From positions 1 through 35,442 of the forward strand of contig CAJBVW010000371.1 of assembly GCA_903959175.1 (NCBI GenBank): a stretch of 35,442 nt of DNA. The letters are read 5' to 3'. This document shows positions 14,503 through 29,435 of this stretch, one piece after another. Within the stretch, counting starts at the first letter, position 1. Each line of letters starts with the position of its first letter. Source of the DNA: an uncultured Pseudomonadota bacterium. GTDB lineage: Bacteria; Myxococcota_A; UBA796; SXON01. The notes beneath the pieces are model-generated. The model ran no database searches and was not told where the DNA came from. It was given only the letters and a program-made list of their open reading frames with translations. The translations under genes were made by a program, and so were the position numbers.

Positions 14503-15576
14503 ATGCAGCTCGTACTCCTGCTGGCGCTGATCGGACGGGCCCTCGCCGAGGGCTCCCCGACGCCTGTGCCAGCGGAGGTCGCCCCCGAGGCGCCTCCGGC
14601 TCCCCCTGCGAGTGAGCCGGCGGCGGCTTCCCCCGAGGCCTCCCCGGGTGAGGTGGTCGACCGCGTTGCGGCTGTCGTGAACGAGGACATCATCACGCTG
14701 AGCGAGGTGTACGCCTTCGGCGCCTCCTACATCGACGAGGTGGTGCAGGCGCGGGGCCCGTCCGCCCGTCAGGCCGCCGAGGCCGAGGTGCTCGAGCGCC
14801 TGCTGGAGCGCCGGCTTGTCTCCCAGGAGATGACCGCGCTGAAGCTGGATCTCGTGGATCAGGACGTAGACCGCTCCATCTCGGACATCGCCGAGCGCAA
14901 CGGGATGGAGATCGACGACCTCCGCAAGGAGGTCGAGCGTAGCGGCATGGCGTGGGACCAATACCGCAGCGAGCTCGAGGAGAACCTGCGCGACATGAAG
15001 TTCGCGCAGACCGTCCTCCGCCCGCGGGTGAACGTCACCGAGGATGAGCTGCGCGACGCGTGGCTACGCACGACGCCCGCCGCGCCCGCCTCTGCCCGCA
15101 TCCAGGCGCTCGTCCTCTCGATCCCGCCCGGTGCGTCCGAGGCGGATCGTGAGGCGGTGATCGCCAAGGCGCGTGCGCTGCGTGAGCAGGCGCGCGCGGG
15201 CGCGGACTTCGCGGAGCTGTCCAAGGCGAACGACCAGGGGCCCTTCGGCGAGCAGGCCGGCGAGATGGGCGTGTTCAAGCCCGGCGAGCTGGTGGACGCG
15301 CTGGACAACGTCGTCGTGAACGCGCCCGTCGGGGACGTGAGCGAGCCCATCGTCATCGGGGACGGCGTGTACCTCCTCCGCGTCGCCGAGCGCCTGACGG
15401 GCGCGAACGACTTCGAGGCCCGTCGCGACGAGGTCGCCGAGCAGGTCTTCCAGGCCCGCCTCGAGGACGAGAAGCAGCGCTGGTACCAGGAGGCGCGCCG
15501 CCGCGCGGCCATCCGGATCCTCCTCCCCGGGCTGCCGCAGTCGGGCTCTTCCCCCGGGCTCTCCCCGACCCGATGA
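14503..15576 (+). CDS. surA: SurA-like periplasmic chaperone with one parvulin domain
   Basis: A 357-residue protein with a signal peptide (MQLVLLLALIGRALAEG) followed by a Pro/Ala-rich spacer. The SurA N-terminal domain starts at VVDRVAAVVNEDIITLSEVY, its hallmark opening. Helical segments follow, then a parvulin domain from about residue 200 (RIQALVLSIPPGAS; FAELSKANDQGPFGEQAGEM; VYLLRVAERLTG). E. coli SurA has two parvulin domains and about 428 residues, so this is a shorter single-domain form. SurA delivers outer-membrane proteins to the Bam machine. Its stop overlaps the pdxA ATG (ATGA), matching the surA-pdxA order known in enterobacteria and supporting the call. Confidence 0.88.
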   Translation: MQLVLLLALIGRALAEGSPTPVPAEVAPEAPPAPPASEPAAASPEASPGEVVDRVAAVVNEDIITLSEVYAFGASYIDEVVQARGPSARQAAEAEVLERLLERRLVSQEMTALKLDLVDQDVDRSISDIAERNGMEIDDLRKEVERSGMAWDQYRSELEENLRDMKFAQTVLRPRVNVTEDELRDAWLRTTPAAPASARIQALVLSIPPGASEADREAVIAKARALREQARAGADFAELSKANDQGPFGEQAGEMGVFKPGELVDALDNVVVNAPVGDVSEPIVIGDGVYLLRVAERLTGANDFEARRDEVAEQVFQARLEDEKQRWYQEARRRAAIRILLPGLPQSGSSPGLSPTR

Positions 15577-16478
15577 GCCGCGTTCCCCTGGTGCTGACCC
15601 CGGGGGACCCTCGGGGGATCGGCCCCGAGGTTGCGGTGCGGGCCCTGCGGTCCACGGGTCTGGACGCCGTCCTGCTCGGCGACATCGACGCCCTGCGCCG
15701 CTACGCGCCGGAGCTCACCGTCGTGGACGAGCTCTCCACCGGCACGGGTCTCCGTGCCCTGGCGCTGCCGCCCTCCGATGAGCCGGTCGAGGTCGTGGCG
15801 ATCAAGGAGGCCGTCGCCGCGTGCCTCGCGGGGCGCGCGCGCGCGATCGTGACCGGGCCCATCCACAAGGCCCGTCTGGCCGCGCGGGGTTTTCCCTACC
15901 CGGGCCACACGGAGCTCCTCGGCGCCTTGTGTGGCGTCGACGCGCCCGTGATGGCGTTCGTGGGTGGGGCCGTGCGCGTCGCGTTGGTGACCGTGCACCT
16001 GCCGCTGCGTGATGTGCCCGCGGCCATCACTCACGCGAAGGTGCTGCACACGCTACGCGCGGCCGATCGCGCGCTGCGGGAGCGCCTCGGCTTCGCGCAC
16101 CCGCGCCTCGCGGTGTGTGGCCTCAACCCACACGCGGGCGACGACGGGCTGCTCGGCCGCGAGGAGATCGACACCATCGGGCCGGCCTGTGTCGCCGCGC
16201 GTGCCGAGGGCATGGACATCTGGGGGCCAATCAGCGCAGAGACCGCCTTCTACGAGGTGGATCGCTCGGACATGGTCGTCGCGATGTACCACGACCAGGG
16301 GCTGGCGCCGCTCAAGCGCGTCGACTTCGGGCGCTCCGTCAACTGGACGCTCGGCCTCCCCATCGTGCGGACGAGCGTGGATCACGGCACCGCGGACGCC
16401 CTGGTCGGTACCGGCCGCGCCAGCGCAGACAGCATGGTCGCGGCGCTCGAGCTCGCGATCCGGCTCACCGGCGGCTAG
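15573..16478 (+). CDS. pdxA: 4-hydroxythreonine-4-phosphate dehydrogenase PdxA
   Basis: A 301-residue enzyme of the pyridoxal 5'-phosphate pathway that oxidises 4-phosphohydroxy-threonine with NAD. Family marks are all present: the opening LTPGDPRGIGPEVAVRAL, TGPIHK, the substrate loop GHTELL (zinc-binding His region), NPHAGDDG, YHDQGLAPLK and RTSVDHGTA. The metal ligands expected from the family (His in GHTE, VHLPL and YHDQ, Asp in DHG) are conserved, so it should be active. It is slightly shorter than the E. coli enzyme (about 329). It is coupled to the SurA-like gene by ATGA. Its TAG stop shares CTAG with the stop of the convergent lipoprotein gene. Confidence 0.96.
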   Translation: MSRVPLVLTPGDPRGIGPEVAVRALRSTGLDAVLLGDIDALRRYAPELTVVDELSTGTGLRALALPPSDEPVEVVAIKEAVAACLAGRARAIVTGPIHKARLAARGFPYPGHTELLGALCGVDAPVMAFVGGAVRVALVTVHLPLRDVPAAITHAKVLHTLRAADRALRERLGFAHPRLAVCGLNPHAGDDGLLGREEIDTIGPACVAARAEGMDIWGPISAETAFYEVDRSDMVVAMYHDQGLAPLKRVDFGRSVNWTLGLPIVRTSVDHGTADALVGTGRASADSMVAALELAIRLTGG

Positions 16479-17014
16479 TCTGCCGGGGCGTCGAGGAGGG
16501 TGGCGCAGCGCGCGCCCGCGTCCCAGGTGTCCCAGCGCTCTGGGCTGACGCCAAAGGCGCGGCAGTCGGCCTGCTCCGTGCCGTCGCGGCTCCAGACGCG
16601 CAGGATGCCGGTCAGATCCGCCTCGTTGCAGTTGAACGCGGTCGAGCTGCCGATGACCACGTCGCGCCAGTCGGACTCGATGTCCAGCGTCAGGGCGAGA
16701 GAGTCGGCGCTGCCGTCCGCCGCGGCGCTCTGGGAGTACAGCGTGTGCTTCTCGACGTACGCGCCGTCCGTGGAGAGCAGGACCTGCCCGTTGCCCGTCC
16801 ACGCGTCGGTGGTGGCCGTGAAGCGCCACTCGGCGGCCGCAACGTCGCAGCCGACGGTCGCCGCAGTGAGGGAGGGGAGGGTGGCCTCGATGGCAGTGCC
16901 CGTCTCTTCGGCGGGCGCGCCGGTGCACGCGGGCGCAAAAACGAGCACGGCGCAGACCCGGAAGATCCGGATCTGCGCCGTGCAGCGTTGGGGAACGAGA
17001 TCGTTACCGAGCAA
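16475..17014 (-). CDS. Small secreted lipoprotein, third and most diverged member of a tandem family
   Basis: I do not recognise a named family. The frame gives 179 residues from TTG 17014, including a possible lipoprotein signal (RIFRVCAVLVFAPACTG). GTG 16948 would leave only seven residues before that cysteine. The mature part shares the pattern of the two upstream lipoproteins: an early GC...W element, then YVEKHTLYSQ, then SSTAFNC, and a C-terminal DGTEQADCRAFG with a final cysteine near the end. The start is doubtful because a strong terminator for the upstream gene lies within its first 25 codons. Expression would need read-through, a promoter in the stem, or a start not visible here. 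Its stop overlaps that of pdxA. Confidence 0.68.
   Translation of the reverse strand: MLGNDLVPQRCTAQIRIFRVCAVLVFAPACTGAPAEETGTAIEATLPSLTAATVGCDVAAAEWRFTATTDAWTGNGQVLLSTDGAYVEKHTLYSQSAAADGSADSLALTLDIESDWRDVVIGSSTAFNCNEADLTGILRVWSRDGTEQADCRAFGVSPERWDTWDAGARCATLLDAPAD
16937..16983 (-). terminator. Strong Rho-independent terminator after the second tandem lipoprotein
   Basis: An 18-bp inverted repeat (16945-16962 and 16966-16983) has a 3-nt loop. Read on the minus strand, all 18 pairs form with one G-U wobble. Read on the plus strand the same position is a C-A mismatch, so the structure favours minus-strand transcripts. Five U follow three bases after the stem (16937-16941). It begins 20 nt beyond the stop of the lipoprotein gene at 17004-17525, and it lies inside the 5' coding region proposed for the next gene. 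Confidence 0.85.
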
Positions 17015-17525
17015 CGTTCGTGCACCACTCCGAGTAGTACGCCGTGTTCTGACCGGTCACGCGGCAATCTTCCGTGGACCCGTCGGCGCTGGTGGCGCCG
17101 AAGTACCAGGTGGTGCGGGCGGCGGTGGCGCCGGTGTCGGGGTTGAAGAGGGTGGTCTCGTTGAGGACCACCGCGTCGAGGGTGGTGACCCAGTCGAGGT
17201 CGAGACGGTAGGTCTCGCTGCCGTCGGCGTTGGTGGTCTCGAGGTCGAAGGCGGTGTGGTTCTCGTTGTAGAGGAACTCGAGGTCGGCCGTCTCGGTCAT
17301 GTCGAGCTCGAGGCCGCCGGCCGCGGTCGTCGTCGTGATGCGGTAGATGCAGAGGCCGCTGGCGCAGTCGCCGGAGAAGCCTTCACCCGTGGTGTCGCCG
17401 GTCATGGCGAACGCGATCTCGGCGTCGGTGTCGGTGGTGTCCGTGTCGACCACGCCGGTGTCCCCGGTGTCCTTTTCGGTGGACGTGCAGGCAAAGAGGG
17501 ACACGAGAGTCATAAGAGTGAACAT
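17004..17525 (-). CDS. Small secreted lipoprotein, second member of the tandem family
   Basis: A 173-residue protein starting at ATG 17525 with GGAGGAG 6 nt upstream. The signal peptide MFTLMTLVSLFACTST has lipobox LFAC. It is followed by an acidic spacer of repeated Asp-Thr-Gly (DTGDTGVVDTDTTDTDAE), a style seen in surface lipoproteins of Myxococcota-like genomes. The domain contains GDCASGLCIYRI, GGLELDMTETADLEF, NENHTAFDL, LNETTLFNPDTG, EDCRVTGQNTAYYSEWC and ends NVAR. The four cysteines may form two disulfides. The same ordered motifs occur in the gene at 17633-18184 (GDCSGSTCTWW, VELDLVETGD, FHNDFSL, NNQSTLFDM, ADCVTFGHDTSYFADVC), so the two are paralogs. Function unknown; probably displayed on the cell surface. 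Confidence 0.87.
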   Translation of the reverse strand: MFTLMTLVSLFACTSTEKDTGDTGVVDTDTTDTDAEIAFAMTGDTTGEGFSGDCASGLCIYRITTTTAAGGLELDMTETADLEFLYNENHTAFDLETTNADGSETYRLDLDWVTTLDAVVLNETTLFNPDTGATAARTTWYFGATSADGSTEDCRVTGQNTAYYSEWCTNVAR

Positions 17526-17597
17526 TTTTCTCCTCCAGAGATGGTGCGAGCGGCTTTTACACCAAGGTGGCGCCGGACGCAAGTCGAGTTCGCGGTG

Positions 17598-17624
17598 CGG
17601 GGGAGAAAGTGTGGTCCTCCCCCG
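17598..17624 (-). terminator. Stem-loop after the first tandem lipoprotein gene
   Basis: CGGGGGAG (17598-17605) pairs with CTCCCCCG (17617-17624) around an 11-nt loop, starting 8 nt past the stop at 17633. There is no U tract on the minus-strand side, so it may stabilise the 3' end or terminate weakly. It supports separate transcription of the two lipoprotein genes. Confidence 0.35.
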
Positions 17625-17632
17625 ATGAATCG

Positions 17633-18184
17633 CTACCAGTCGGCGGCGTCGTTCGTGCACACGTCGGCGAAGTAGCTGGTGTCGTGCCCGAAGGTCACGC
17701 AGTCCGCGTAGTCGCCGTTCTCGTCGGACACGACGAACAGCATGGTGATCTGGTTCGAGATCGTGCCGCTGGACATGTCGAAGAGGGTGGACTGATTGTT
17801 CACCTGGTCTTCGAAGCTACCGACGAGGTCGAGGTTGATCTCCTTGACCTCCGTCTCGTCGTCGAAGTCGGCCAGGGAGAAGTCATTGTGGAACTCGGAC
17901 CAGGCGCCGCAGACGAGGTCGCCCTTGGCGGCGGAGGGGCCGCAGCTCCAGGAGGGGTCGCCGGTCTCGACGAGGTCGAGCTCGACCTGGCCCGTGCGCC
18001 CGGTGGCTTCGACCCACCAGGTGCAGGTGCTACCGCTGCAGTCGCCGTTGAAGCCCTTGATCTCGACGGCGTCGCTGCCACCGGTGGACTCGCAGGCGGT
18101 GTCGCCCGTGTCGCACTTGCTACCGGAGCTGTCACAGCCGACGAGGGTGAGCGCCGCGGCGCCGAGGAGGAGAAGCGTCTTCAT
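17633..18184 (-). CDS. Small secreted lipoprotein, first member of the tandem family
   Basis: A 183-residue protein with a clean lipoprotein signal (MKTLLLLGAAALTLVGCDSS, lipobox LVGC) and a short spacer containing CDTGDT. The mature domain has about ten cysteines and a strongly acidic face. Its ordered motifs match the neighbouring lipoprotein: GDCSGSTCTWWVEATG, GQVELDLVETGD, FHNDFSLADF, NNQSTLFDMSSG, then ADCVTFGHDTSYFADVCTND. An extra cysteine-bearing insert (WSCGPSAAKGDLVCGAW) is absent from the paralog. A possible minus-strand promoter (TTGAAC at 18270-18265, 16 nt, TTAAGG at 18248-18243) lies upstream but is weak. The role is unknown; surface display is inferred from the lipobox. Confidence 0.88.
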   Translation of the reverse strand: MKTLLLLGAAALTLVGCDSSGSKCDTGDTACESTGGSDAVEIKGFNGDCSGSTCTWWVEATGRTGQVELDLVETGDPSWSCGPSAAKGDLVCGAWSEFHNDFSLADFDDETEVKEINLDLVGSFEDQVNNQSTLFDMSSGTISNQITMLFVVSDENGDYADCVTFGHDTSYFADVCTNDAADW

Positions 18185-18266: not shown

Positions 18267-19931
18267 TCAAGGCGCAGGCGGGACTGCAAGCTCCTCGAAA
18301 GAGGCCGCCATCTTCTCGCGGAAGAGCATGCGCTCGATGCGATCGAGCAGGGTCTGGAGGCCTTCTCCGGTGATGGCGCTCACCGGAGTCGCGCTCCACT
18401 CCTCGACCATGGCCCGTACCTTCTCGGGCTGCGAACGATCGATCTGGTTCACGACGACCATCGTCGGGGCTTCGGCCGCGCCGAGCTCCTTGAGCACCTG
18501 GTCGACGGTCGCCTTCTGGGCTTCGGCCTCCTCGTCGCCCGCGTCCACCACATGGAGCAGCAGATCGGCCTCCAACGCCTCGTCGAGGGTGCTCCGAAAG
18601 GCGTGCACGAGATCCTTCGGAAGGTCCCGGATGAATCCTACTGTGTCCGTGAGGATGATCTCCCGGTCCTCCGGGAAGCGCATCCGCCGCGACGTGGGAT
18701 CCAGGGTGGCGAAGAGCTTGTCCTCGGCGTCCACCCGGCTCTGGGTCATGCGGTTCAGCAGGGTGGACTTCCCGGCGTTCGTGTAGCCGACGATCGCCAC
18801 GAGCGGCAGGCCGACACGCTTGCGCCGGTCGCGCCGCATGGTGCGCTCGGTGGCGATGTCGTCGAGCTGACGCTGAACGCGGTGCAGGCGCTCGTCCGCG
18901 CGCCGCCGGTTGATCTCGAGCTTCGTCTCGCCGGGGCCCCGCCCGCCGATCCCGCCGGTGAGGCGGCTCATGGCGGTCGGCATGATGGCCAGGCGCGGCT
19001 TGCGGTAGCGGAGCTGCGCGAGCTCGACCTGGAGCTTGCCCTCCCGGGTGGTTGCGCGCTGGCTGAAGATGTCGAGGATGAGCTGGGTACGATCGAGCAC
19101 CTTGAGCTCGGTCTCGGTGGCGATGTTCCGGAGCTGGGAGGGGGAGAGCTCCTGATCGAAGACGAGGACGTTGGCGCCGAGGTGCATGCAGCGCAGCACG
19201 AGGTCCTTGAGCTTGCCCTGCCCGACGAGCGTGCGTCCGTCGAGCTCACGGCGCACCTGGAGCACCTGATCGGCCACCTGGAGGCCGGCGGTGTTCGCGA
19301 GCCGTCCCAGCTCTTCGAGGGAGCGGCGGGCGCCGCGCGGATCCTTCAGTGTGACGCTCACCAGCACGGCGCTCTCGCGGCCGGACACGGAACGCGCGTC
19401 TGCAACGGTGCGGAATTGAGCTTCGAGATCGTGGATGAAGGCGGTGAAGTCCTCCTCGAAGCCGTGCACCGAGGTCACCTTCTCGACCCGCCACATCTCC
19501 CCGCCGCGGGCCTTGTTCGGCGGGAGGATCACGCCGTACTCGATCCCGCCCGGCAGCCCGTCCGGCTGCGACTGCACCACGACCACCGTGTCGAGGCGGA
19601 GGAGGGCGAGATCGGTGAGGTCGTCCTTGCTCAGGCCTTCGCCGCGCAGGTGCGTGTGCACGAGGCGGAGCCCACGAAAGCGGCTGGCGCCGGCGCGTTC
19701 GCGGCCTAGTTCGGGGATGAAGAGCTGGTGGGCGTCGCCCACGATCACCTTGTCGACCATCCCGGCGCGGTCGATGAGGAGCCCCACCTGGCGGTTGCAC
19801 TCCCGAGACACCTCCGTCATGCGACGGGCGAGCTCGGGAGTGATGAAGCGCGAGGCCGGGATGCGGCGTTGGTAGAACGACTGGAGGGCCTTGTTCTGGC
19901 TCGGCTTCAGGCCCTCGGTGTTCCCAAACAA
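18267..19931 (-). CDS. hflX: HflX GTPase, long N-terminal form
   Basis: A 554-residue ribosome-associated GTPase. After an N-terminal extension (GNTEGLKPSQNKALQSFYQR, ending near ECNRQVGLLIDRAG) comes the HflX N-terminal domain (GRTLVGQGKLKDLV; VFDQELSPSQLRNIA; GGIGGRGPGETKLE). The GTPase domain has G1 GYTNAGKST at 382-390, G3 DTVGFIRDLP and G4 NQID. HflX splits stalled or heat-damaged ribosomes. The usual HflX is about 430 residues; the longer N-terminus is common in deltaproteobacterial homologs. The only canonical start upstream of ATG at residue 38 is TTG 19931, with no Shine-Dalgarno at the right distance. An ATC at 19940 has AGGAG exactly 7 nt upstream (see findings). It follows the flotillin-like stop closely. 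Confidence 0.95.
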   Translation of the reverse strand: MFGNTEGLKPSQNKALQSFYQRRIPASRFITPELARRMTEVSRECNRQVGLLIDRAGMVDKVIVGDAHQLFIPELGRERAGASRFRGLRLVHTHLRGEGLSKDDLTDLALLRLDTVVVVQSQPDGLPGGIEYGVILPPNKARGGEMWRVEKVTSVHGFEEDFTAFIHDLEAQFRTVADARSVSGRESAVLVSVTLKDPRGARRSLEELGRLANTAGLQVADQVLQVRRELDGRTLVGQGKLKDLVLRCMHLGANVLVFDQELSPSQLRNIATETELKVLDRTQLILDIFSQRATTREGKLQVELAQLRYRKPRLAIMPTAMSRLTGGIGGRGPGETKLEINRRRADERLHRVQRQLDDIATERTMRRDRRKRVGLPLVAIVGYTNAGKSTLLNRMTQSRVDAEDKLFATLDPTSRRMRFPEDREIILTDTVGFIRDLPKDLVHAFRSTLDEALEADLLLHVVDAGDEEAEAQKATVDQVLKELGAAEAPTMVVVNQIDRSQPEKVRAMVEEWSATPVSAITGEGLQTLLDRIERMLFREKMAASFEELAVPPAP

Positions 19932-19950: not shown

Positions 19951-21183
19951 CTACTTCCGGACGACGGACTCGATGACCTGGGGGAGGTCGATCCCGAGCG
20001 CGCCCTTCAGCTCTTCGACAAGCGTGATGGCCTTGCGCGCGCTCACGTCCGCATCGGGGGGAAGGACCGTGAGGCGATCGACCTTGACTCTCTGGATGGT
20101 AGACACCAGCTGCCCCATCGTCGCCTGTAGTTTCTGCATCAGGAAGATGTCGCGCGAGGCCTCCCCGCCGTTCTTCCAGGTGGTGATCATCTGCTCGAGC
20201 ACGTGGTTGGTGGCGCGACCGTCCTCGACGATCTTGGCCGCCGCCCCCTTCGCGTTCGAGTTCGCGGCCTGCATCGCGGCCTCCGCGGGTGCGATCACGT
20301 CCGCCTCCAGCTGACGGCGGACCTGCTCCACGCGCGCGCTCTGGACCTTGAGCTCGCCCTCGGCGCGCGCGACCATGGCCTTCACGCGGCCGACCTCTTC
20401 GGCGATGAGCGCCTCGCGCCGGGAGAGCGTCTCCATGATGCGGCGATCGGTCTGCGTGCGGGCAATCTCGATCTCTGACTCGAGCTCCGACACGCGGGCC
20501 CGCTCGCGCGAGGTGGCGTCCTGGGTGATGGAGCGCGCGCGCGCGTTCGTCTCGGCGACCTTCGAGCGCATGATCAGGTCGGCCGAGCTCTTCCGGCCGA
20601 TGCTGTTCAGGTAGCCCTTCTCGTCCGACACGTTCTGGATCTTCAACGTGTCGAGCGAGAGGCCGAGCTTCGAGAGGTCGTGTTCGGCTTCTTCGAGGAG
20701 CTTCTCGGCGAAGGCGATCTTGTCCTCGTTGACCTGCTCGGGCGTGAGCTGGGAGAGCACGCCACGGAGGTTGCCCTCGAGGGTGTCCTTGGCGACCTGG
20801 ACGATGTCCTTCCTTGTGTACCCGATGAACCGCTCGATCGCGTTGTTGAGCACGGGCTCGTGACCCGCGATCTTGATGTTCGCGACGCCCTGCACCGTGA
20901 GCGGGATGCCGCCCTTCGAGTACGCGTTGGTGACCGCGACCTCGATGATCATGTTGGTGAGATCGACGCGGTCGACCTTCTCGAGGAGCGGGATGCGCAC
21001 CGAGCGCCCGCCCTTGACGATGCGGTAGCCGACGGTCTTGCCCTCGAGCCCGCGCGTGGTGCCCGAGAAGATCAGGACCTCGTTCGGGCCGCAGATGTAG
21101 AGCAGGTTGCGCAGCACGACGAGCGCGCAGAACGCGAAGAAGACGATGACGAAGAGGAGCGCGACGGGGACGAAGGGATTCAC
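19951..21183 (-). CDS. Flotillin-like SPFH membrane protein, second copy
   Basis: A 410-residue protein starting at the GTG that overlaps the stop of its paralog (GTGA). The order is one N-terminal TM helix (VALLFVIVFFAFCALVVL), an SPFH/band-7 domain at about 30-220 (GPNEVLIFSG; GRSVRIPLLEKVDRVDL; NAYSKGGIPLTVQG; EQVNEDKIAFAEKLLEEAEH), a long coiled coil at about 220-330 and a C-terminal region ending VIESVVRK. Flotillins form cage-like oligomers on the inner membrane, organise lipid microdomains and protect membrane proteins. It is clearly homologous to the adjacent gene; the two probably form a hetero-oligomer. The NfeD-like protein encoded upstream is the usual partner. Confidence 0.9.
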   Translation of the reverse strand: MNPFVPVALLFVIVFFAFCALVVLRNLLYICGPNEVLIFSGTTRGLEGKTVGYRIVKGGRSVRIPLLEKVDRVDLTNMIIEVAVTNAYSKGGIPLTVQGVANIKIAGHEPVLNNAIERFIGYTRKDIVQVAKDTLEGNLRGVLSQLTPEQVNEDKIAFAEKLLEEAEHDLSKLGLSLDTLKIQNVSDEKGYLNSIGRKSSADLIMRSKVAETNARARSITQDATSRERARVSELESEIEIARTQTDRRIMETLSRREALIAEEVGRVKAMVARAEGELKVQSARVEQVRRQLEADVIAPAEAAMQAANSNAKGAAAKIVEDGRATNHVLEQMITTWKNGGEASRDIFLMQKLQATMGQLVSTIQRVKVDRLTVLPPDADVSARKAITLVEELKGALGIDLPQVIESVVRK

Positions 21184-22457
21184 GACTGGATCTCCGTGCG
21201 GGAGGAAGCGCGCGCGAGGGTGCCGGTGACGTCGACGCCGGTGGTGGCGCGGAGCTCTTCGAGGACCTGCTTCACCATCGCGGGGTAGCCCGAGACGAAG
21301 GCGGCGAGCGCCTTGCCGTCGCCGCGGTCGATCACGGTGACCTCGCCGACCTCGACGCTGTTGACCCGTGCCACGACGGTCGCGACGATCTGTTCGAGCT
21401 GCTGGATGAGGAAGATGTCCTTCGCGTCCGCGCCGGCTGCGCTCCAGGTTCGGGTGAGCATCTCCAGTACTTCCGCCATGGCCGCGCCGTTCTCGGCGAT
21501 GGTCGAGGCCTCGCCACGGGCGCGCAGCGCTTCGGCCTGCTGCTCGGCGCGGGCGGGGAGGACGACCTCGGCCATGAGGCGGGTCTGCTCGAGCTGCTTG
21601 CGGATCTCCTGGAGCTCCTGCTCGGCTTCGGCGCGGGCCTCGGCGGCGAGTTGGCCGGTTCGCTCTTCCTCGGACTTCGCGGTCCCCTCGAACTCGGCCT
21701 TGATCTTGCGGAGCTCGTTCTGCTTCTTGCCGATGCGGGCCTCGGCCTGCTCGACCGCGATCTTGCCTGACTGGTTCGCCAGCGCTTCCGCCATCTCGGC
21801 CTCGCTCTTGGCGTTGGACTCGGCGATGTCGGCGACCATGAGCACGTTCGCGATGCGCTCGCGGCCGATGCTGTCGAGGTACTTCACGTCGTCGTAGACG
21901 TTGAGCACGCGGAGCGTGTCGAGCTGGATGCCGAGCTTGCGGAGATCGTCCTCCGCTTCGTCCAGCAGGGTGTTGGCGAACTTGAGACGGTCCTCGTTCA
22001 CCTCTTCCGGGGTCAGCCGCGCGAGGACACCGCGGAGGTGGCCCTCCAGCGACTCCTTCGCGACGCGCCGGATCTCGGCGGGATCCCGGCCGAGGAAGCG
22101 CTCCACGGCGTTCATGATCACCTTCGGGTCACTCGAGACCTTCACGTTCGCGATTGCGTGGAGGTTCAGCGGGATGCCGCCCTTGGAATAGGCGTTCGCG
22201 ACGTGCAGATCCAACGGGATGGTCGAGAGGTCCATCGCGTCGACGCGCTCGAGGAGCGGGACCCGGATCGTCCGCCCACCGAAGACGAGGCGGTAGCCGA
22301 CCTCGGAGCCGTCCGCCATCGTCCGTTTCTGGCCGGAGAAGATGAGTACTTCGTCCGGACGGCAGATGAACAGGAACTGCTTTGCGATCGCGACGGCCAT
22401 CAGGAGGCCGAATCCGACGGCACTCGCGGCACACAGGGCGTAGACGAGCTCTTCCAA
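21180..22457 (-). CDS. Flotillin-like SPFH membrane protein, first copy
   Basis: A 425-residue protein. I start it at TTG 22457, with AAGGAG 5 nt upstream, because the N-terminus (LEELVYALCAASAVGFGLLM) then aligns with that of the paralog. An upstream start would add a proline-serine-rich sequence reading back into the NfeD-like gene. The TM helix is followed by SPFH motifs PDEVLIFSGQ, GRTIRVPLLERVDAMDL, NAYSKGGIPLNLHA and EEVNEDRLKFANTLLDEAED, then a long Ala/Glu coiled coil and a C-terminal region ending RTEIQS. Role as for the paralog: a membrane scaffold. It is 10 nt downstream of the NfeD-like gene. Confidence 0.9.
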   Translation of the reverse strand: MEELVYALCAASAVGFGLLMAVAIAKQFLFICRPDEVLIFSGQKRTMADGSEVGYRLVFGGRTIRVPLLERVDAMDLSTIPLDLHVANAYSKGGIPLNLHAIANVKVSSDPKVIMNAVERFLGRDPAEIRRVAKESLEGHLRGVLARLTPEEVNEDRLKFANTLLDEAEDDLRKLGIQLDTLRVLNVYDDVKYLDSIGRERIANVLMVADIAESNAKSEAEMAEALANQSGKIAVEQAEARIGKKQNELRKIKAEFEGTAKSEEERTGQLAAEARAEAEQELQEIRKQLEQTRLMAEVVLPARAEQQAEALRARGEASTIAENGAAMAEVLEMLTRTWSAAGADAKDIFLIQQLEQIVATVVARVNSVEVGEVTVIDRGDGKALAAFVSGYPAMVKQVLEELRATTGVDVTGTLARASSRTEIQS

Positions 22458-22467
22458 GCGGGCTCCT

Positions 22468-23169
22468 TCAGGAGGGGGTGAGGAGGACGGGGGCGACGTG
22501 ACGGTCGGGGGCGACGGGCGTGACGTCGGCGGTACCGGCGGCAACATCCACCACGAGGACGCGCTCGCCACGTTCGATGAGGCGGCCCTCGCGGGTGGTG
22601 CCGGGCAGCTCGATGGTCTGGCCGTTGTGCACCAGGCGCACCTTGCCGAGCTTGTTCGGTCCGATCGAGAGGACGACCTCGGCGTCGCGCCCGCGGAGGG
22701 AGCGCGCGTCGAGGGCGCTCGAGACCGTGTCGCGCGAGACGGCGCGGAGGAGCGTCGTGACGCCTGCCCCCACGCCGCCGCCGGTGAGCACCGACAGGCA
22801 GACGCCGACGAGCGGATTGACGGCCAGCAGCGTGAGCAGGAGGCCCGTCATCCCGAAGGCCGCGAGGGAGAAGGTCCAGAACCGGAGGGAGAGGAAGATC
22901 GTCGCGAGCGCACCGATGCCCTTCATGGCTTCGGCGCTGCTCTGGCCGTGATCGTGGTGGGCAAGGTCCTTGCCGCCGGTCACATGCTCGCTGAGGCTGT
23001 GCCCCCCGCTGCCCTCGTGCTCGGCGCCCTCGCCTTCGACGGCAGCGTGCCCGTCGCCTCCGCTCGCGTGCGCGTCTCCGTCGGCATCCTTCCCGCTCCC
23101 GAACATCGACGCTGCGATCAGGATGCCGCCCAGCGTGAGGGAGCCAGCGTAGAGCGCGAGGAGGGTCAC
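22468..23169 (-). CDS. NfeD-like membrane protein with His-rich segment and OB-fold domain
   Basis: A 233-residue protein starting at GTG with AGGA 8 nt upstream. It has an N-terminal TM helix (LLALYAGSLTLGGILIA). A hydrophilic segment at about 27-78 is rich in Gly, Asp, Glu and His (HEGSGGHSLSEHV, AHHDHGQ). Two further hydrophobic helices follow (FSLAAFGMTGLLLTLLAVN; LVGVCLSVLTGGGVGAGV). The C-terminal OB-fold-like domain (SLRGRDAEVVLSIGPNKLGK; NGQTIELPGTT; ERVLVVDV) is of NfeD/YqiJ type. NfeD proteins are encoded beside flotillins and are thought to bind or regulate them. The His-rich stretch could bind metal; this is inference. Confidence 0.85.
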   Translation of the reverse strand: MTLLALYAGSLTLGGILIAASMFGSGKDADGDAHASGGDGHAAVEGEGAEHEGSGGHSLSEHVTGGKDLAHHDHGQSSAEAMKGIGALATIFLSLRFWTFSLAAFGMTGLLLTLLAVNPLVGVCLSVLTGGGVGAGVTTLLRAVSRDTVSSALDARSLRGRDAEVVLSIGPNKLGKVRLVHNGQTIELPGTTREGRLIERGERVLVVDVAAGTADVTPVAPDRHVAPVLLTPS

Positions 23170-23933: not shown

Positions 23934-24773
23934 GTGTCCCAGCTCCCCCTCCGGCTCGTGCCCTCGGTTCGCGCCTCCCCCGAAGCGCCGCGCGAGGTCC
24001 GTGTGCCCGGTATCCACGGGGGCGACGAGGTGTCGAGGAAGGAGGGAGGACAGGGTGACGCGCCGCCACGCATGGCCGCGATCGACCGGCTGCGGGCGCT
24101 GGTGGGAGCGCGTGGTCGGGTGGGGATCGTGCCCGCGTCTCCGTCGCGTGCGGTGGAGATCCCGTCGGTCCTCCACGGCCATCTCTCCACGGGCATCGCG
24201 GGGTTGGACGCCTGGCTCCACGGCTGGCCCCAGCTCGCTCCGATCGAGCTCGTGGGAGCGCCGGGGGGCGGTCGGTTGGCGTTGGTCATCCCCCTGCTCG
24301 AGCGGCTCACCCAAGCGGGTCGTGCGGTGGTGCTGGTGGACCCGCTCCACCAGATCCATCCGCCAGGGCTCGGCCGGATCGATCCCGCCCGCCTGGTGCT
24401 GGTCCGGCCCCCGGGCGAACGGGCAGGGTGGGCGGCGGAGCAGGTGGCGCGCTCGGGCGCGGTGGACGCGCTGGTGGTGATCGACGCGCCCGCTTTCGGA
24501 CGTGCGGGCGTCCGGTTCGCCCGCGCGGCGGAGGCCGGCGGTATGGCCGTCTTCGTGCTCGCGGATCGTACGGACGCAGAGCTCCCCGCCGCCCTGCGGA
24601 TCGAGGCCGTCGGGTGGGAGGGGGATCGCGTGCGCGTGCGCTGCACCCGCAGTCGGGACGGACGGATCGTGGGAGAGAGGTGGATCACCCCCTCCGAGGC
24701 GCCGCCGGATACGGCGTCGATCCCCGTGGTCCGCTCGGAACGGGGGCATCGCCGTCACGTCGGAGTCGGATGA
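23934..24773 (+). CDS. imuA: ImuA-like RecA-fold protein of the mutagenesis cassette
   Basis: A 279-residue protein of the ImuA/SulA-like branch of the RecA superfamily. The family core GIAGLDAWLHGWPQLAPIEL is followed by a degenerate P-loop, GAPGGGRLAL at 108-117, lacking the Walker lysine, so it is not expected to hydrolyse ATP normally. Later segments (AVVLVDPLHQIHPPGLGRID; AVDALVVIDAPAFGRAG) match ImuA. The partner is ImuB, and the pair recruits DnaE2 for error-prone lesion bypass. The GTG lies directly after the operator, so the first 46 residues may be absent in vivo; ATG 24072 would give 233 residues. It overlaps imuB (ATGATG). The identification rests also on the following genes. Confidence 0.82.
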   Translation: MSQLPLRLVPSVRASPEAPREVRVPGIHGGDEVSRKEGGQGDAPPRMAAIDRLRALVGARGRVGIVPASPSRAVEIPSVLHGHLSTGIAGLDAWLHGWPQLAPIELVGAPGGGRLALVIPLLERLTQAGRAVVLVDPLHQIHPPGLGRIDPARLVLVRPPGERAGWAAEQVARSGAVDALVVIDAPAFGRAGVRFARAAEAGGMAVFVLADRTDAELPAALRIEAVGWEGDRVRVRCTRSRDGRIVGERWITPSEAPPDTASIPVVRSERGHRRHVGVG

Positions 24774-25534
24774 TGCGCAGGGGGTTCCTGGCCATCCATC
24801 TGCCGAGCTTTCGGCTGGAGCGCTGCGGCTGGGATCCGCAGGTGCCCACCGTGCTCGTCGCGGTCGAGCGCGGCGCCGAGCGGGTCCAGGCGCTCTCGCT
24901 GCCTGCGGGGAACGCGGGGGTGCGCTTGGGGATGACGCTCGCCGCGGCCCGCGCCTGCCTGCCGGAGCTGCGGCTCGAGCGGCTCGATCCCACCGGAGAG
25001 GTCGCGGACCTGGAGGCGCTCTGCACCGCGCTCGTCCGCTTCACCCCCGCCGCGCGCGCCGTCCCGCCCGACGCGCTCCTCCTCGAGGTGGGCGCCGTCG
25101 CGTTGGCCCCGATCCGGGCCTGTCTTGCCGAGCTCGGCCACGTCTGTCGCCTCGTGCTGGCGGAGGAGGGGGGGCGCGGCGCTCGCGCTCGCGCGGCACG
25201 CCCGGCGGGACCGGGTGGTGCCTCCGGGCGGGCTCGCCGAAGCGCTCGCGCCGCTCCCGGTGACGGCGCTCGAACTGCCCGATGTCGTGCAGCTTTCCCT
25301 GCACGACGTGGGCATCCGCACGATCGGGCAGTTCGCAGCGCTCCCCACGGCCGCGCTCACCGGTCGGTACGGGCCCGAGATCGCGATCGCGCACGCGCGG
25401 GCCGGAGGGCGTGCGCCCCCCGCGGCGCTCCCCGTGCCTCCTCCCCTGGTGGAGACCTCCTTCCACGTCGACTTCTCCGACGCGGTCGAGGTGTTGGAGG
25501 CCGTGTTGTTCGTCCTGAACGGTCTGGTCCGTGA
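24770..25534 (+). CDS. imuB: ImuB N-terminal third, frame interrupted
   Basis: The frame begins MMRRGFLAIHLPSFRLERCG, the ImuB opening, with GGAG just upstream. It shares the Y-family fold but lacks the catalytic acidic residues, as is usual for ImuB. It continues through VERGAERVQALSLPAGNAGV, RLGMTLAAARACLPELRLE and ALCTALVRFTPAARAVPPD, and reads as ImuB up to about base 25168. After the G7 run it becomes an Arg/Ala/Gly-rich string typical of wrong-frame reading and stops at 25534. The rest of ImuB is in the next frame. Either the run contains an extra G (assembly or sequencing error) or the gene needs a frameshift. I treat 25175-25534 of this frame as non-coding. Confidence 0.75.
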   Translation: MMRRGFLAIHLPSFRLERCGWDPQVPTVLVAVERGAERVQALSLPAGNAGVRLGMTLAAARACLPELRLERLDPTGEVADLEALCTALVRFTPAARAVPPDALLLEVGAVALAPIRACLAELGHVCRLVLAEEGGRGARARAARPAGPGGASGRARRSARAAPGDGARTARCRAAFPARRGHPHDRAVRSAPHGRAHRSVRARDRDRARAGRRACAPRGAPRASSPGGDLLPRRLLRRGRGVGGRVVRPERSGP

Positions 25535-28500
25535 CCTCGCGGCGTCCCTGGAACGAACCGGTCTGGCCGCGATGCGGGTGCAGGTCCGCCTGCGGCTCGA
25601 CCCCGGCGAGCACCTCGTCCCGATCCGACTCGGGCAGCCGTCGCGCGGCCCGGATCGGTTGTTCCGACTCCTGAGAGCGCGGCTGGAGCGGGTGCAGTTG
25701 GGCGCGCCCGTGGTCGGGGTCGGCCTCGAGCTCCTGGAGTCCGCGCCGTTCCGGGCCATGCAGGCGGGCCTGCTCGAACGCGCCGGGGCGATCGAGCCGC
25801 TCCCCGAGCTCTGCGCCCGCCTCCAGGATGTGCTCGGACTCGACGCGGTCTGCACGCCCGTCCTGGCCGACACCTGGTGCCCCGAGGCCTCCTGGGTGCC
25901 GGTGCCGTGGGGGCATCCGGGCCCCGAGCGCCCCGCCGCTTCCCCGGTGCCCGACCCCTCCGCGCCGCACGAGCCGGTGGACGGCGAGCGCGCGCCGCCG
26001 GCCGTGCTCCTGCCGTCACCGTCCCCGCTCCGGGTCGCCGCCGCCCCCTCCGGGCGCCCGCGCGCGCTCCTGCTCGACCGCGCATGGACCCCGCTCCCCG
26101 TGGTGGAGGGCCCCGAGCGTCTCGCCGGGGAATGGTGGCGCGCGGACGGGTGGCGGCGGGACTACTGGCGGGTCGGTCTGCCGGACGGTCGCCGTGCCTG
26201 GATCTTCCGCGAGGCCCTCCCGGGAGACGAGGACCCGCTCTCCCAGCGCTGGTACCTGCACGGATGGTTGGACGGCGCCGCGGCGCCGCCGCGTCCCGAG
26301 CCGGCGCCCACCCCCGCGCCGGTTCGAACCTCCCGATCCGCGCGCCCGCCTCCAGCGCGGTACGCAGAGCTGGTCTGCCGGTCGAACTACTCGTTCTGTG
26401 AGGGCGCCTCCTTCCCCGAGGAGCTGATCGAGCGCGCGCGGGAGCTCGGCCTCTCCGGGTTGGCGCTCACGGATCGGGACGGCGTGTACGGGAACGTCCG
26501 GTTCCACAAGGAGGCGAAAGGGTTTCCCATCCTGCACGGCTCGCTCCTCACCCTGAGGTCGGGGCACGAGCGCGTGCTGGACGGGGGCCCGGCGTGGTCC
26601 GCCGTGGCGCTGGTCCAGGACCTCACCGGGTGGGCGAGCCTGTGCCGCCTCCTCACCACCGCGCGCGGCGAGGCCACCAAGGGGCGGGCGGAGCTCCCCC
26701 TGGAGCGGTTGCTCGAGCAGAACGAGGGGTTGATCCTCCTCGCGCGCGGAGACTGGCCGGAGGACGCGTTGATTCGCCTGCGGGAGTCCGCGGGGGACCG
26801 CCTCTACCGCGCCGTCAGCCGCCGCCTCGCGCCCGGGGAGGAGGCCCGGATCGACGCGCTCGTCGGGGGGAGCATCCCCTGCGTCGCGACGAACGACGTG
26901 CTCCTTCACTCGTCCGAGCGCGCCCGTCTGCAGGACGTGCTCGCCTGCATCCGGATGCGGACCACGCTTCCGGAGGCGGGCCGCCGCCTGCAGCCCAACG
27001 CCGAGCGCGTGCTGAAGGACCCCGAGCGCATGGCGCGGCTGTTCCGTGCCTGGCCCGAGCTCATCGACCGCACGACCGAGATCATGGGCCGATGCCGCTT
27101 CTCGCTCAGCGAGCTGAAGTACCACTACCCCAAGGAGGTGGTTCCCGAGGGCTACAGCGCGATGGCCTGGCTCCGGGAGATCACCATCCGGGGCACGCGG
27201 GAGCGCTACGGCCCCACCCCCGCCGTGAGCGTGGTGCGCCAGATCGAGTACGAGCTGGCCATCATCGAACGGCTCTCCTTCGCGGCGTACTTCCTCACCG
27301 TGCACGATCTCGTGCGTTTCGCGCGGGAGCGCGGCATCCTCTGCCAGGGCCGTGGCAGCGCCGCCAACTCCGCCGTCTGCTATGTCCTCGGCGTCACGGC
27401 AGTCGATCCGGCGCACACCGACCTGCTCTTCGAGCGCTTCATCTCTGAGGAGCGCGGCGAGCCGCCCGACATCGACATCGACTTCGAGCACGAGCGACGC
27501 GAGGAGGTCCTCCAGTACGTCTACGAGAAGTACGGGCGGGAGCGCGCCGCCATGGTGAACGAGGTCATCTCGTGGCGCGGGCGCATGGCCGTCCGGGATG
27601 TCGGCAAGGCGGTGGGCCTCGGGCTCGATCAGGTGGACCGCCTCGCCAAGGCGATGGACAGCTGGGGAGGCAAGCCACCCTCCGAGGAGCGCTTTCGGGA
27701 GGCTGGCCTCGATCCCTCCGATCCCGCCCTCGCCCTCACCCAGGAGCTCGTCGGGGAGATCCAGGGCTTCCCGCGCCACACCTCGATCCATGTCGGCGGG
27801 TTCGTCATCTCCGATGGGCCCCTGATCGACCGCGCGCCGATCGAGCCCGCCACGATGGAGGGGCGCACCGTCATCCAGTGGGACAAGAACGATGTCGACG
27901 ACCTCGGCTTCGTCAAGGTGGACTTGCTCGCCCTCGGCATGCTCACCGCCATCCGGAAGTGCTTCGAGATGATGCGCAGCGCGCACGGCGTCCACCACGA
28001 CCTCTCGTCGGTCCCCCGAGAGGACCCCGGCGTCTACGACATGCTCTGCGAGGCCGACTCCACGGGGGTGTTCCAGGTGGAGAGCCGCGCGCAGCAGGGC
28101 ATGCTACCGAGGTTGAAGCCACGCAAGTTCTACGACCTCGTCATCGAGACGGCGATCGTGCGCCCGGGCCCCATCCAGGGAGGCATGGTCCACCCGTATC
28201 TGCGCCGTCGCACCGGCGAAGAGGAGGTGACCTACGTCGACGAGCGTCTCCGCCCCATCCTCGAGCGCACCCTCGGCATCCCCATCTTCCAGGAGCAGGT
28301 GATGGCGATGGCCGTCGCCGTCGGCGGCTTCACCCCCGGAGAGGCCGACGCGCTCCGCCGGGCGATGGGCGCGTGGCGCCGTCGCGGTGGGCTCGGCGAG
28401 CTGGGGGAGAAGCTGATGCAGGGCATGCGCGACAACGGCCTGCCCGAAGCCTACGCGCAGCAGATCTTCCAACAGATACAAGGGTTTGCGGAGTACGGGT

Positions 28501-29435
28501 TCCCGGAATCGCACGCGGCCTCCTTCGCGCACCTCGTCTACGTGTCCTCGTGGCAGCGCTGCTACTTCCCGGCGGCGTTCTGCGCGGCGCTCATCAACTC
28601 GCAGCCGATGGGCTTCTACGCGCCGCGATCGCTGGTAGCGGTCGCCCAGCGCCACGGGGTCGAGGCGCGCGCGATCGACGCCACGATCTCCGGATGGGAC
28701 TGCAGTCTGGAGCCCGCGGCGGACGGCCCTGCGTTGCGACTCGGGATGCGGCTCGTGAAGGGGCTGAAGGAGGGTGCAGCGCGCGCGGTGGAGGTGGCGC
28801 GTCGCGAGCGTCCGTTCGATGGGCTGGCGGACTTCGCGGCTCGCACTGGGCTCGATCGCAGCTCGCTGCTGGCGCTGGCACGTGCCTGCGCGCTCGACAG
28901 CCTGCTCCCTTCGGACCAACGCGGGGCCCGGGGGGCGGTGTGGGCGGTGGAGGGGCTCTGGAGCGGGCTCTTCGCGCGCACGCCCCGCGTGGAGCAGCAG
29001 ATGGCGCTCCCCCTCGCCACGCCCCTCGACGAGGTGCAGGCCGACTACCGCGCGACTGGCCTCTCCGTGCGGAGCCACCCCGTCGGGCTCGTCCGGGAGG
29101 CCCTGGAGAAGGACGGGGTGATCTCCCTCGCGCGGCTGGTGGAGGTACGGGCCGGCGCCCCCGTGCGCGTCGCGGGGCTCGTGTCCCATCGGCAGCGTCC
29201 GGGCACGGCCTCGGGCGTCGTGTTCATGACGTTGGAGGACGAGACAGGTACGGTCAACGTCGTGGTGTGGCCCAAGCTCTTCGAGCGCCAACGGACGCTC
29301 ATCCGGGGGGAGCCCCTGGTGTGTGTGTCGGGAGAGCTCCAGCGCGACGGGGAGGCTATCAGCGTGGTCGCTCACCACTTCTCCGTGCTGAAGACCGCGC
29401 CGCCGGTCGCCGCGTCCAGTCGGGACTTCCGATGA
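25125..29435 (+). CDS. dnaE2: ImuB C-terminal part fused to error-prone DNA polymerase DnaE2
   Basis: This frame is open for 1436 codons; real homology begins right after 25174, and TTG 25125 is only the first formal start. ImuB segments come first (VVPPGGLAEALAPLPVTALE; SLHDVGIRTIGQFAALP), ending with the ImuB tail YWRVGLPDGRRAWIF and RWYLHGWLD near 26273. A 30-residue Pro/Arg linker leads into DnaE2 at RYAELVCRSNYSF (26358). DnaE2 domains: a PHP domain with degraded metal motif (CRSN, LTDRDG), the polymerase core GRGSAANSAVCYVLG, catalytic PDIDIDF (Asp at 27474 and 27480), third Asp in FVKVDLLALG (27921), VESRAQQGMLPRLKPRKFYD, and a C-terminal OB domain (VAGLVSHRQRPG). No ATG or GTG lies in the last 90 nt before DnaE2, so fusion is required. 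Confidence 0.87.
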   Translation: MPSSATSVASCWRRRGGAALALARHARRDRVVPPGGLAEALAPLPVTALELPDVVQLSLHDVGIRTIGQFAALPTAALTGRYGPEIAIAHARAGGRAPPAALPVPPPLVETSFHVDFSDAVEVLEAVLFVLNGLVRDLAASLERTGLAAMRVQVRLRLDPGEHLVPIRLGQPSRGPDRLFRLLRARLERVQLGAPVVGVGLELLESAPFRAMQAGLLERAGAIEPLPELCARLQDVLGLDAVCTPVLADTWCPEASWVPVPWGHPGPERPAASPVPDPSAPHEPVDGERAPPAVLLPSPSPLRVAAAPSGRPRALLLDRAWTPLPVVEGPERLAGEWWRADGWRRDYWRVGLPDGRRAWIFREALPGDEDPLSQRWYLHGWLDGAAAPPRPEPAPTPAPVRTSRSARPPPARYAELVCRSNYSFCEGASFPEELIERARELGLSGLALTDRDGVYGNVRFHKEAKGFPILHGSLLTLRSGHERVLDGGPAWSAVALVQDLTGWASLCRLLTTARGEATKGRAELPLERLLEQNEGLILLARGDWPEDALIRLRESAGDRLYRAVSRRLAPGEEARIDALVGGSIPCVATNDVLLHSSERARLQDVLACIRMRTTLPEAGRRLQPNAERVLKDPERMARLFRAWPELIDRTTEIMGRCRFSLSELKYHYPKEVVPEGYSAMAWLREITIRGTRERYGPTPAVSVVRQIEYELAIIERLSFAAYFLTVHDLVRFARERGILCQGRGSAANSAVCYVLGVTAVDPAHTDLLFERFISEERGEPPDIDIDFEHERREEVLQYVYEKYGRERAAMVNEVISWRGRMAVRDVGKAVGLGLDQVDRLAKAMDSWGGKPPSEERFREAGLDPSDPALALTQELVGEIQGFPRHTSIHVGGFVISDGPLIDRAPIEPATMEGRTVIQWDKNDVDDLGFVKVDLLALGMLTAIRKCFEMMRSAHGVHHDLSSVPREDPGVYDMLCEADSTGVFQVESRAQQGMLPRLKPRKFYDLVIETAIVRPGPIQGGMVHPYLRRRTGEEEVTYVDERLRPILERTLGIPIFQEQVMAMAVAVGGFTPGEADALRRAMGAWRRRGGLGELGEKLMQGMRDNGLPEAYAQQIFQQIQGFAEYGFPESHAASFAHLVYVSSWQRCYFPAAFCAALINSQPMGFYAPRSLVAVAQRHGVEARAIDATISGWDCSLEPAADGPALRLGMRLVKGLKEGAARAVEVARRERPFDGLADFAARTGLDRSSLLALARACALDSLLPSDQRGARGAVWAVEGLWSGLFARTPRVEQQMALPLATPLDEVQADYRATGLSVRSHPVGLVREALEKDGVISLARLVEVRAGAPVRVAGLVSHRQRPGTASGVVFMTLEDETGTVNVVVWPKLFERQRTLIRGEPLVCVSGELQRDGEAISVVAHHFSVLKTAPPVAASSRDFR
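25168..25174 (+). other. Seven-G run at the ImuB frame junction
   Basis: A run of seven G lies where the ImuB reading frame must change. With six G the codons continue through EEGGAALALARHARRD, giving a normal ImuB sequence. It is the only place where one single-base change joins the two frames. Confidence 0.8.

Follow-up and report, generated by a model that had tools for sequence, protein, structure and literature searches.

Three consecutive genes on the minus strand of a 35,442-nucleotide stretch of DNA from an uncultured bacterium (contig CAJBVW010000371.1 of assembly GCA_903959175.1, the whole of which is called the window here) encode strongly diverged members of a real, new and unnamed protein family, and we refer to them as P1, P2 and P3. 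Their products appear to be secreted, lipid-anchored and disulfide-bonded single domains with an immunoglobulin (Ig)/fibronectin type III (FN3)-like predicted fold, and the family seems limited, as sampled, to one order of uncultured 'Deltaproteobacteria'. The reading that we favour, with a probability of about 0.5, is a lipid-anchored binding or scaffold domain of the cell envelope that exists as a constant core copy, P3, accompanied by the diversified duplicates P1 and P2. A family so sharply bounded, found in almost all sampled genomes of one order and in none outside it, is of interest because envelope proteins that mark out a lineage offer a good way into what sets an uncultured group apart.

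Three diverged lipoproteins of one family

All three open reading frames (ORFs) were confirmed at the positions given by the first-pass annotation, on the minus strand. P1 (17633..18184) encodes a lipoprotein of 183 residues with the lipobox LVGC (Cys17), a short Cys/Asp-Thr-Gly spacer and an Ig-like core. P2 (17004..17525) encodes one of 173 residues with the lipobox LFAC (Cys13) and an Asp-Thr-rich spacer, and shares the core by sequence. P3 (16475..17014), the member conserved throughout the order, has 179 residues when read from a TTG codon at 17014, with a lipid-anchor cysteine at position 30. Lipoboxes were located in all three by motif scan; lipidation is a prediction. The annotation had also described an ordered set of motifs common to the three proteins, and four of these have a counterpart in each: an early GDC or GC element (GDC in P1 and P2, VGC in P3), an H-x-x-F/L segment (HNDF in P1, HTAF in P2, HTLY in P3), a turn (NQSTLF, NETTLF and GSSTAF, respectively) and a C-terminal DC..G..Y/W..C. 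The fifth, ELD..ET, occurs in P1 and P2 and is missing from P3.

Homology was evident from pairwise comparison (blastp E of 3e-18 for P1 with P2, 9e-5 for P2 with P3 and 4e-5 for P1 with P3) and held when signal peptides and spacers were removed. In a test in which the P2 or P3 core was shuffled 2000 times per pair, none of the shuffles reached the real score in any pair, the scores being 65.1 bits against a best shuffle of 23.5 for P1 with P2, 27.7 against 24.3 for P1 with P3 and 25.8 against 23.5 for P2 with P3, so that the margin was small for the pairs with P3. A profile built from the P1 and P2 cores alone ranked P3 third of the 282 ORFs of the window with an E of 3.5e-4 (Z=10000), the next ORF having an E of 210, and the reverse search with a profile of P3 orthologues ranked P1 and P2 second and third. 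When a spacer-free P1/P2 profile was built from orthologues (A7), it found P3 genome-wide at an E of 2.1e-9 and matched only P1, P2 and P3 in their own assembly (7.2 Mb, 611 contigs). Profile-profile comparison of aligned P3 orthologues (A2, 18 rows) with aligned P1/P2 relatives (A3, 15 rows) gave a probability of 98 and an E of 2e-13.

The annotation's description of three tandem, strongly diverged lipoproteins of one family was therefore borne out by profiles, by shuffles and by the shared predicted fold of P1 and P3. An explanation by unrelated lipoproteins that look alike through signal peptides and low-complexity spacers has one observation in its favour, since the A3 profile, which includes both parts, does catch such artefacts. 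Given that spacer-free cores still match and that the predicted P1 and P3 folds agree, we regard this explanation as ruled out for practical purposes.

The family has no name in the collections searched. Neither P1, P2 nor P3 matched Pfam, and 27 members gave stray Pfam matches at best at 0.008, below the curated cut-off. The best NCBIfam match, at 0.81, was likewise below its curated cut-off, and nothing above threshold was found for the three proteins among PDB sequences. A limited literature search, at the level of listings, returned nothing resembling the family, which is no proof of its absence.

AlphaFold2 models were made of the mature P1 and P3 proteins. P3 was predicted (pLDDT 92.6, pTM 0.83) as seven strands with a C-terminal helix, the core domain (16475..16876) forming a beta sandwich that carries Cys56, Cys129, Cys151 and Cys170. 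P1 (pLDDT 83.8, pTM 0.77) had the strand order of P3, with a beta sandwich predicted for its core (17633..18067) and a spacer of low confidence. The structural comparison proposed in the annotation thus came out in favour of a common Ig/FN3-like sandwich with a shared top structural neighbour, within the scope of P1 and P3. That neighbour was the Ig-like domain of a GH2 protein (6byc), which was at or tied for the top in VIA with both P3 (Z 7.3, 94 aligned residues, rmsd 2.9) and P1 (Z 7.4, 92 aligned, rmsd 3.0), although a Z below 8 may reflect merely a common arrangement. Foldseek against the PDB gave weak matches, with best E values of 3.3e-3 and 2.6e-3 and TMq up to 0.42. The predicted P1 and P3 share the beta sandwich with Ig/FN3-like domains such as GH2 6byc, FN3, cytokine-receptor and CBM21/CBM56 domains, but identity in the VIA rows was 8-14%, every Z was under 8 and no match was found at the sequence level; the conserved E-x-H and T-x-F, the cysteine pattern and the C-terminal helix are features of the family's own. 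Foldseek matches to viral structures (E 5.7e-4 and 9.6e-4, TMq 0.41 and 0.37) were to long phage or unnamed proteins, and we did not take them as kinship.

An order-wide orthologue and its probably younger duplicates

Within the order, 57 of 63 genomes were matched by P3 profiles, though in G028 the match was solely to a copy of the P1/P2 type. The same number, 57, was matched among the 377 genomes of a sample of the phylum, all within the order, so that none of the 314 phylum-sample genomes outside it gave a match, nor did any of eight genomes from the same class but outside the order. In the taxonomic family of the window the first alignment matched 19 of 22 genomes. A first profile search of named genome contigs with a three-row alignment gave no match, and the P3 alignment found 15 loci there, in records of metagenome bins for which Deltaproteobacteria or proteobacterium was the usual label. 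The labels of these records were Deltaproteobacteria, (uncultured) proteobacterium, Proteobacteria and Pseudomonadota, together with Klebsiella and Bifidobacterium labels that we think are wrong.

P3 also mostly keeps its place on the chromosome. The cluster usually lies between an upstream gene that we take to encode an HflX-type GTPase (18267..19931, minus strand) and a convergent gene presumed to be of the PdxA type (15573..16478, plus strand), the synteny being established by tblastn. Among 57 P3-type ORFs in 56 genomes, 35 had both neighbours within 4 kb and 21 had one; 54 of the 59 P1/P2-type ORFs lay within 4 kb of HflX or PdxA and five elsewhere. At a larger scale, one flank of P3 holds genes that we take to encode a PPIase, SurA and PdxA, and the opposite flank holds genes presumed to encode HflX, two SPFH proteins and an NfeD-like protein. 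Between or beside these flanks, tblastn with the window genes found P3 with zero to three extra family copies, and four in G039 and G040. A hand count over the fetched loci gave at least two family copies in 35 of the 56 genomes and a single copy in 21. The orthologues of P1 in two congeners were 72-76% identical to it.

The six genomes of the order in which P3 profiles found nothing can be described further. One (G042) has a divergent family copy (E 4.5e-20) between hflX and pdxA, in two (G012 and G015) the contig ends directly after hflX, and in G002 PdxA was found with no HflX match. G049 and G054 had no good match to either neighbour, G054 having a partial HflX-like one. The loci fetched from genus g3 have HflX, but not PdxA, near P3. 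Outside the order, PdxA and HflX can neighbour each other with no family member: they are adjacent in G067, a long kinase-like ORF lies between them in G068, and G070 has an interval of similar length. Genus g6 has a further lipoprotein subgroup (L062:8879-9391, L067:8704-9210 and kin) in the slot between P3 and hflX, recognisable by the motifs FGMAEE..GWYGEDC..GPNSG..CH.

The tree had 116 rows over few columns (141) with midpoint rooting only, and in it the P3-type rows formed a clade of 56 (support 98/97), a 57th, the second copy of G041, being placed elsewhere at the end of a long branch. A clade of 15 (100/97) comprised P1, P2 and related copies from the taxonomic family of the window, and in other lineages copies often grouped by lineage, as did the pairs in G036, G037 and G047. 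From these clades and the clustering of copies by lineage, we read P3 as old, an order-wide orthologue in a fixed position, and P1 and P2 as probably younger duplicates. The annotation had called P3 barely recognisable, yet P3 is the conserved member, and a reading of it as a decayed copy was not supported. P3 would thus have entered or arisen at the hflX-pdxA junction ahead of the radiation of the order, and would mostly have been retained there. The duplication behind P1 and P2 would be a later event, dating to the taxonomic family of the window, and in other lineages duplicates would have formed independently or the slot would have been filled anew.

The cysteines followed the same division. 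Numbered as in P3, Cys56 and Cys129 were present in 57 of 57 P3-type rows, and Cys151 and Cys170 in all 56 that aligned there. Among P1/P2-type copies of other taxonomic families (n=33) the columns of Cys56 and Cys129 were both cysteine in 27, neither in five and only one in a single copy. In the P1/P2 clade (n=15) the Cys129 column held cysteine in fewer than three rows; Cys49 and Cys54 occurred together in 13 and were both missing in two, Cys81 and Cys92 occurred together in five and were both missing in ten, and neither pair was ever represented by one cysteine alone. The C-terminal pair (Cys151/Cys170, or Cys162/Cys176 in P1) was present in nearly all rows and in 15 of 15 of the P1/P2 clade. 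Because the columns co-occur pairwise, we read the C-terminal disulfide as probably shared and the N-terminal one as probably replaced in the P1/P2 clade. Other residues kept across the 116 rows were E-x-H (105 and 109 rows), T (104), D-C (93 and 114), G (98) and the final cysteine (112).

Spacers, rates of change and possible roles

Asp-Thr-Gly spacers follow the anchor in P1 and P2 (in P2 an Asp-Thr-Gly/Asp-Thr-Asp stretch at 17394..17489 on the minus strand, 3' of the lipid-anchor cysteine, assigned from sequence), and P3 has none. The annotation had taken such spacers as a sign of surface display. The A3 profile, which contains the signal peptide and the spacer, returned 14 matches in the genome of the window against three for the spacer-free A7, and at least five of the extra matches were confined to signal and spacer, in ORFs of 462-600 residues. 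Because these unrelated lipoprotein-like ORFs match by signal and spacer alone, the linker is general in the genome and is no evidence of display. A weak match of the first profile (L054:8389-8748, G000:C489:13520-13720, E 0.0096) illustrates the shared spacer, with a signal and spacer before a c-type-cytochrome-like CASCH motif.

In common with bacterial lipoproteins generally, P1-P3 have a short hydrophobic signal ending at the lipobox cysteine, but P3-type signals are often very short with no clear charged start, and the Asp-Thr spacer is confined to the P1/P2 type. Examples of such signals are MFLFLAC and MWLGLILAC, at the 5' ends of L043, L046, L049, L050, L051 and L069. The lipoproteins of Myxococcus xanthus, which are sorted to the inner membrane, the outer membrane or the matrix, belong to the same broad class of lipid-anchored envelope proteins, and in them Lys at +2 goes with the inner membrane and Ala at +7 with the matrix (PMC3222651). 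In P1, P2 and P3, by comparison, +2 is Asp, Thr and Thr and +7 is Lys, Asp and Glu; lacking both residues, they are assigned no location by these rules, which may or may not hold in this lineage.

Ratios of nonsynonymous to synonymous substitution rates (dN/dS) were estimated pairwise over whole genes by the Nei-Gojobori method in three congeners. They were 0.25-0.49 for P1, 0.50-0.94 for P2 (0.94, 0.78 and 0.50) and 0.26-0.45 for P3, and none of the nine comparisons exceeded 1. Among neighbouring genes the values were 0.07-0.10 for HflX, 0.13-0.16 for PdxA, 0.16-0.20 for SurA, 0.06-0.11 for SPFH, 0.12-0.18 for HK, 0.12-0.18 for GNAT, 0.08-0.11 for PPIase and 0.28-0.39 for NfeD. P1-P3 thus evolve faster than the neighbours compared, with NfeD overlapping P1 and P3, and P2 is the fastest of the three. 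Since dS may be depressed by codon bias in genes of about 70% GC, a value near 1 in P2 does not prove positive selection.

Binding is a common function of single Ig-like domains that carry a lipid anchor and disulfide bonds. For this reason, and because P3 is constant and P1 and P2 are variable, we favour an envelope binding or scaffold role, in which the proteins, held in the envelope by their lipid anchor, would bind a partner protein, a glycan or another envelope ligand. P3 would have a constant job and the duplicates would have diversified for variable ligands. Several points weigh against this reading. Binding is deduced entirely from fold class, lipid anchor and spacer in a family with no named homologue, and the structural matches are weak, so that 'Ig-like' denotes an arrangement and not a demonstrated relationship. 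The start of P3, and hence its signal peptide, is unsettled, and the dN/dS values come from three congeners only. G017 has P3 with neither hflX nor pdxA within 4 kb, and in G028, at 99% completeness, the sole copy is of the P1/P2 type and lies outside the slot. Finally, the lipoproteins that occupy the slot in genus g6 and G009 (A4, 10 rows) link well to P1/P2 (A3 against A4, probability 98, signal and spacer included) and hardly to P3 (A2 against A4, a match over 36 columns only).

The annotation had proposed surface antigens, adhesins or recognition proteins, whose divergence predators, phages or partners might drive. The lipobox, the P1/P2 spacers and the Ig-like sandwich are in keeping with this, as are the multiple copies in many genomes and the high upper value of dN/dS in P2. 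The step from rapid divergence to antigens is not supported, however, with every ratio below 1, with spacers that are general in the genome and with a P3 that is near-universal in the order, nearly always as a single orthologue at a conserved position. P1 and P2 may still have a recognition role, P2 coming closest, and as a whole we consider it an unlikely account that still deserves attention. We find it similarly doubtful, and marginally more so, that the family is a housekeeping periplasmic helper tied to its neighbours, which are SurA/PPIase for outer-membrane assembly in one direction and HflX with the two SPFH and NfeD-like proteins in the other. The stable gene neighbourhood, the near-universal P3 and the location of HflX on the same strand in the window would fit, but the linkage can be broken, as in genus g3 and G017, hflX and pdxA lie near each other outside the order with no P3, and gene order alone shows no function.

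Mobile or phage-derived cargo, for example superinfection exclusion or immunity lipoproteins, was suggested by weak PHROG matches of P1 (best 0.0054; a Cor-type exclusion protein matched at 0.11) and by the varying number of paralogues. Most of the PHROG matches lay over the N-terminal signal region, however, viral contigs searched with the P3 core held no relative, and the conserved chromosomal place and lineage-like pattern of P3 in the tree speak against it; we disfavour this origin as very improbable. With a constant core copy next to variable duplicates, few genes suffice to ask whether outside selection acts on the duplicates.

A terminator-like hairpin and other genes near the locus

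About 20 bases past the P2 stop, where the 5' end of the P3 frame is located, lies a GC-rich terminator-like stem-loop with an 18-bp stem followed by TCGTTTTT (16945..16983, minus strand), whose T-run codes for part of the hydrophobic signal stretch of P3. Because this hairpin sits within the 5' end of P3, the start codon is uncertain, TTG at 17014 being the one as read and GTG at 16948 the alternative. Like stems with changed pairs were observed in the same place in G007, G008, G003, G004 and G005, and less strictly in G006 and G001. By a loose stem criterion, whose weakest matches had two mismatches, a stem and T-run occurred in the 220 bases before the domain in 17 of 57 P3-type loci, 12 of them among the 19 from the taxonomic family of the window, compared with 65 of 1140 mononucleotide shuffles, a control that keeps base composition only. 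G006, G010 and others had none by this rule. A limited search of the literature listings returned no terminator inside a lipoprotein signal sequence, which again is no proof of absence.

We treat the hairpin as a lead that stands outside our main claim. A speculative and rather improbable extension is that P3 originated at the hflX-pdxA junction as an envelope protein that defines the order, that in the window's taxonomic family its signal codons also hold the terminator of the P1-P2 mRNA, and that P3 is therefore made only via read-through or translation-coupled antitermination, leaving the upstream duplicates free to diversify.

At the other end of P3, the end of the PdxA-type gene and that of P3 overlap by four bases. 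Beyond hflX, the window holds at 19951-23169 (minus strand) what we take to be two consecutive SPFH-type proteins followed by an NfeD-like gene, which adjoin hflX in many relatives. The two SPFH-type proteins are about 40% identical to each other, as judged from their cross-matches. Further on, at 23934-29435 (plus strand), lies what is presumably a mutagenesis cassette of ImuA-like, ImuB-like and DnaE2-like genes, also found near the locus in several relatives.

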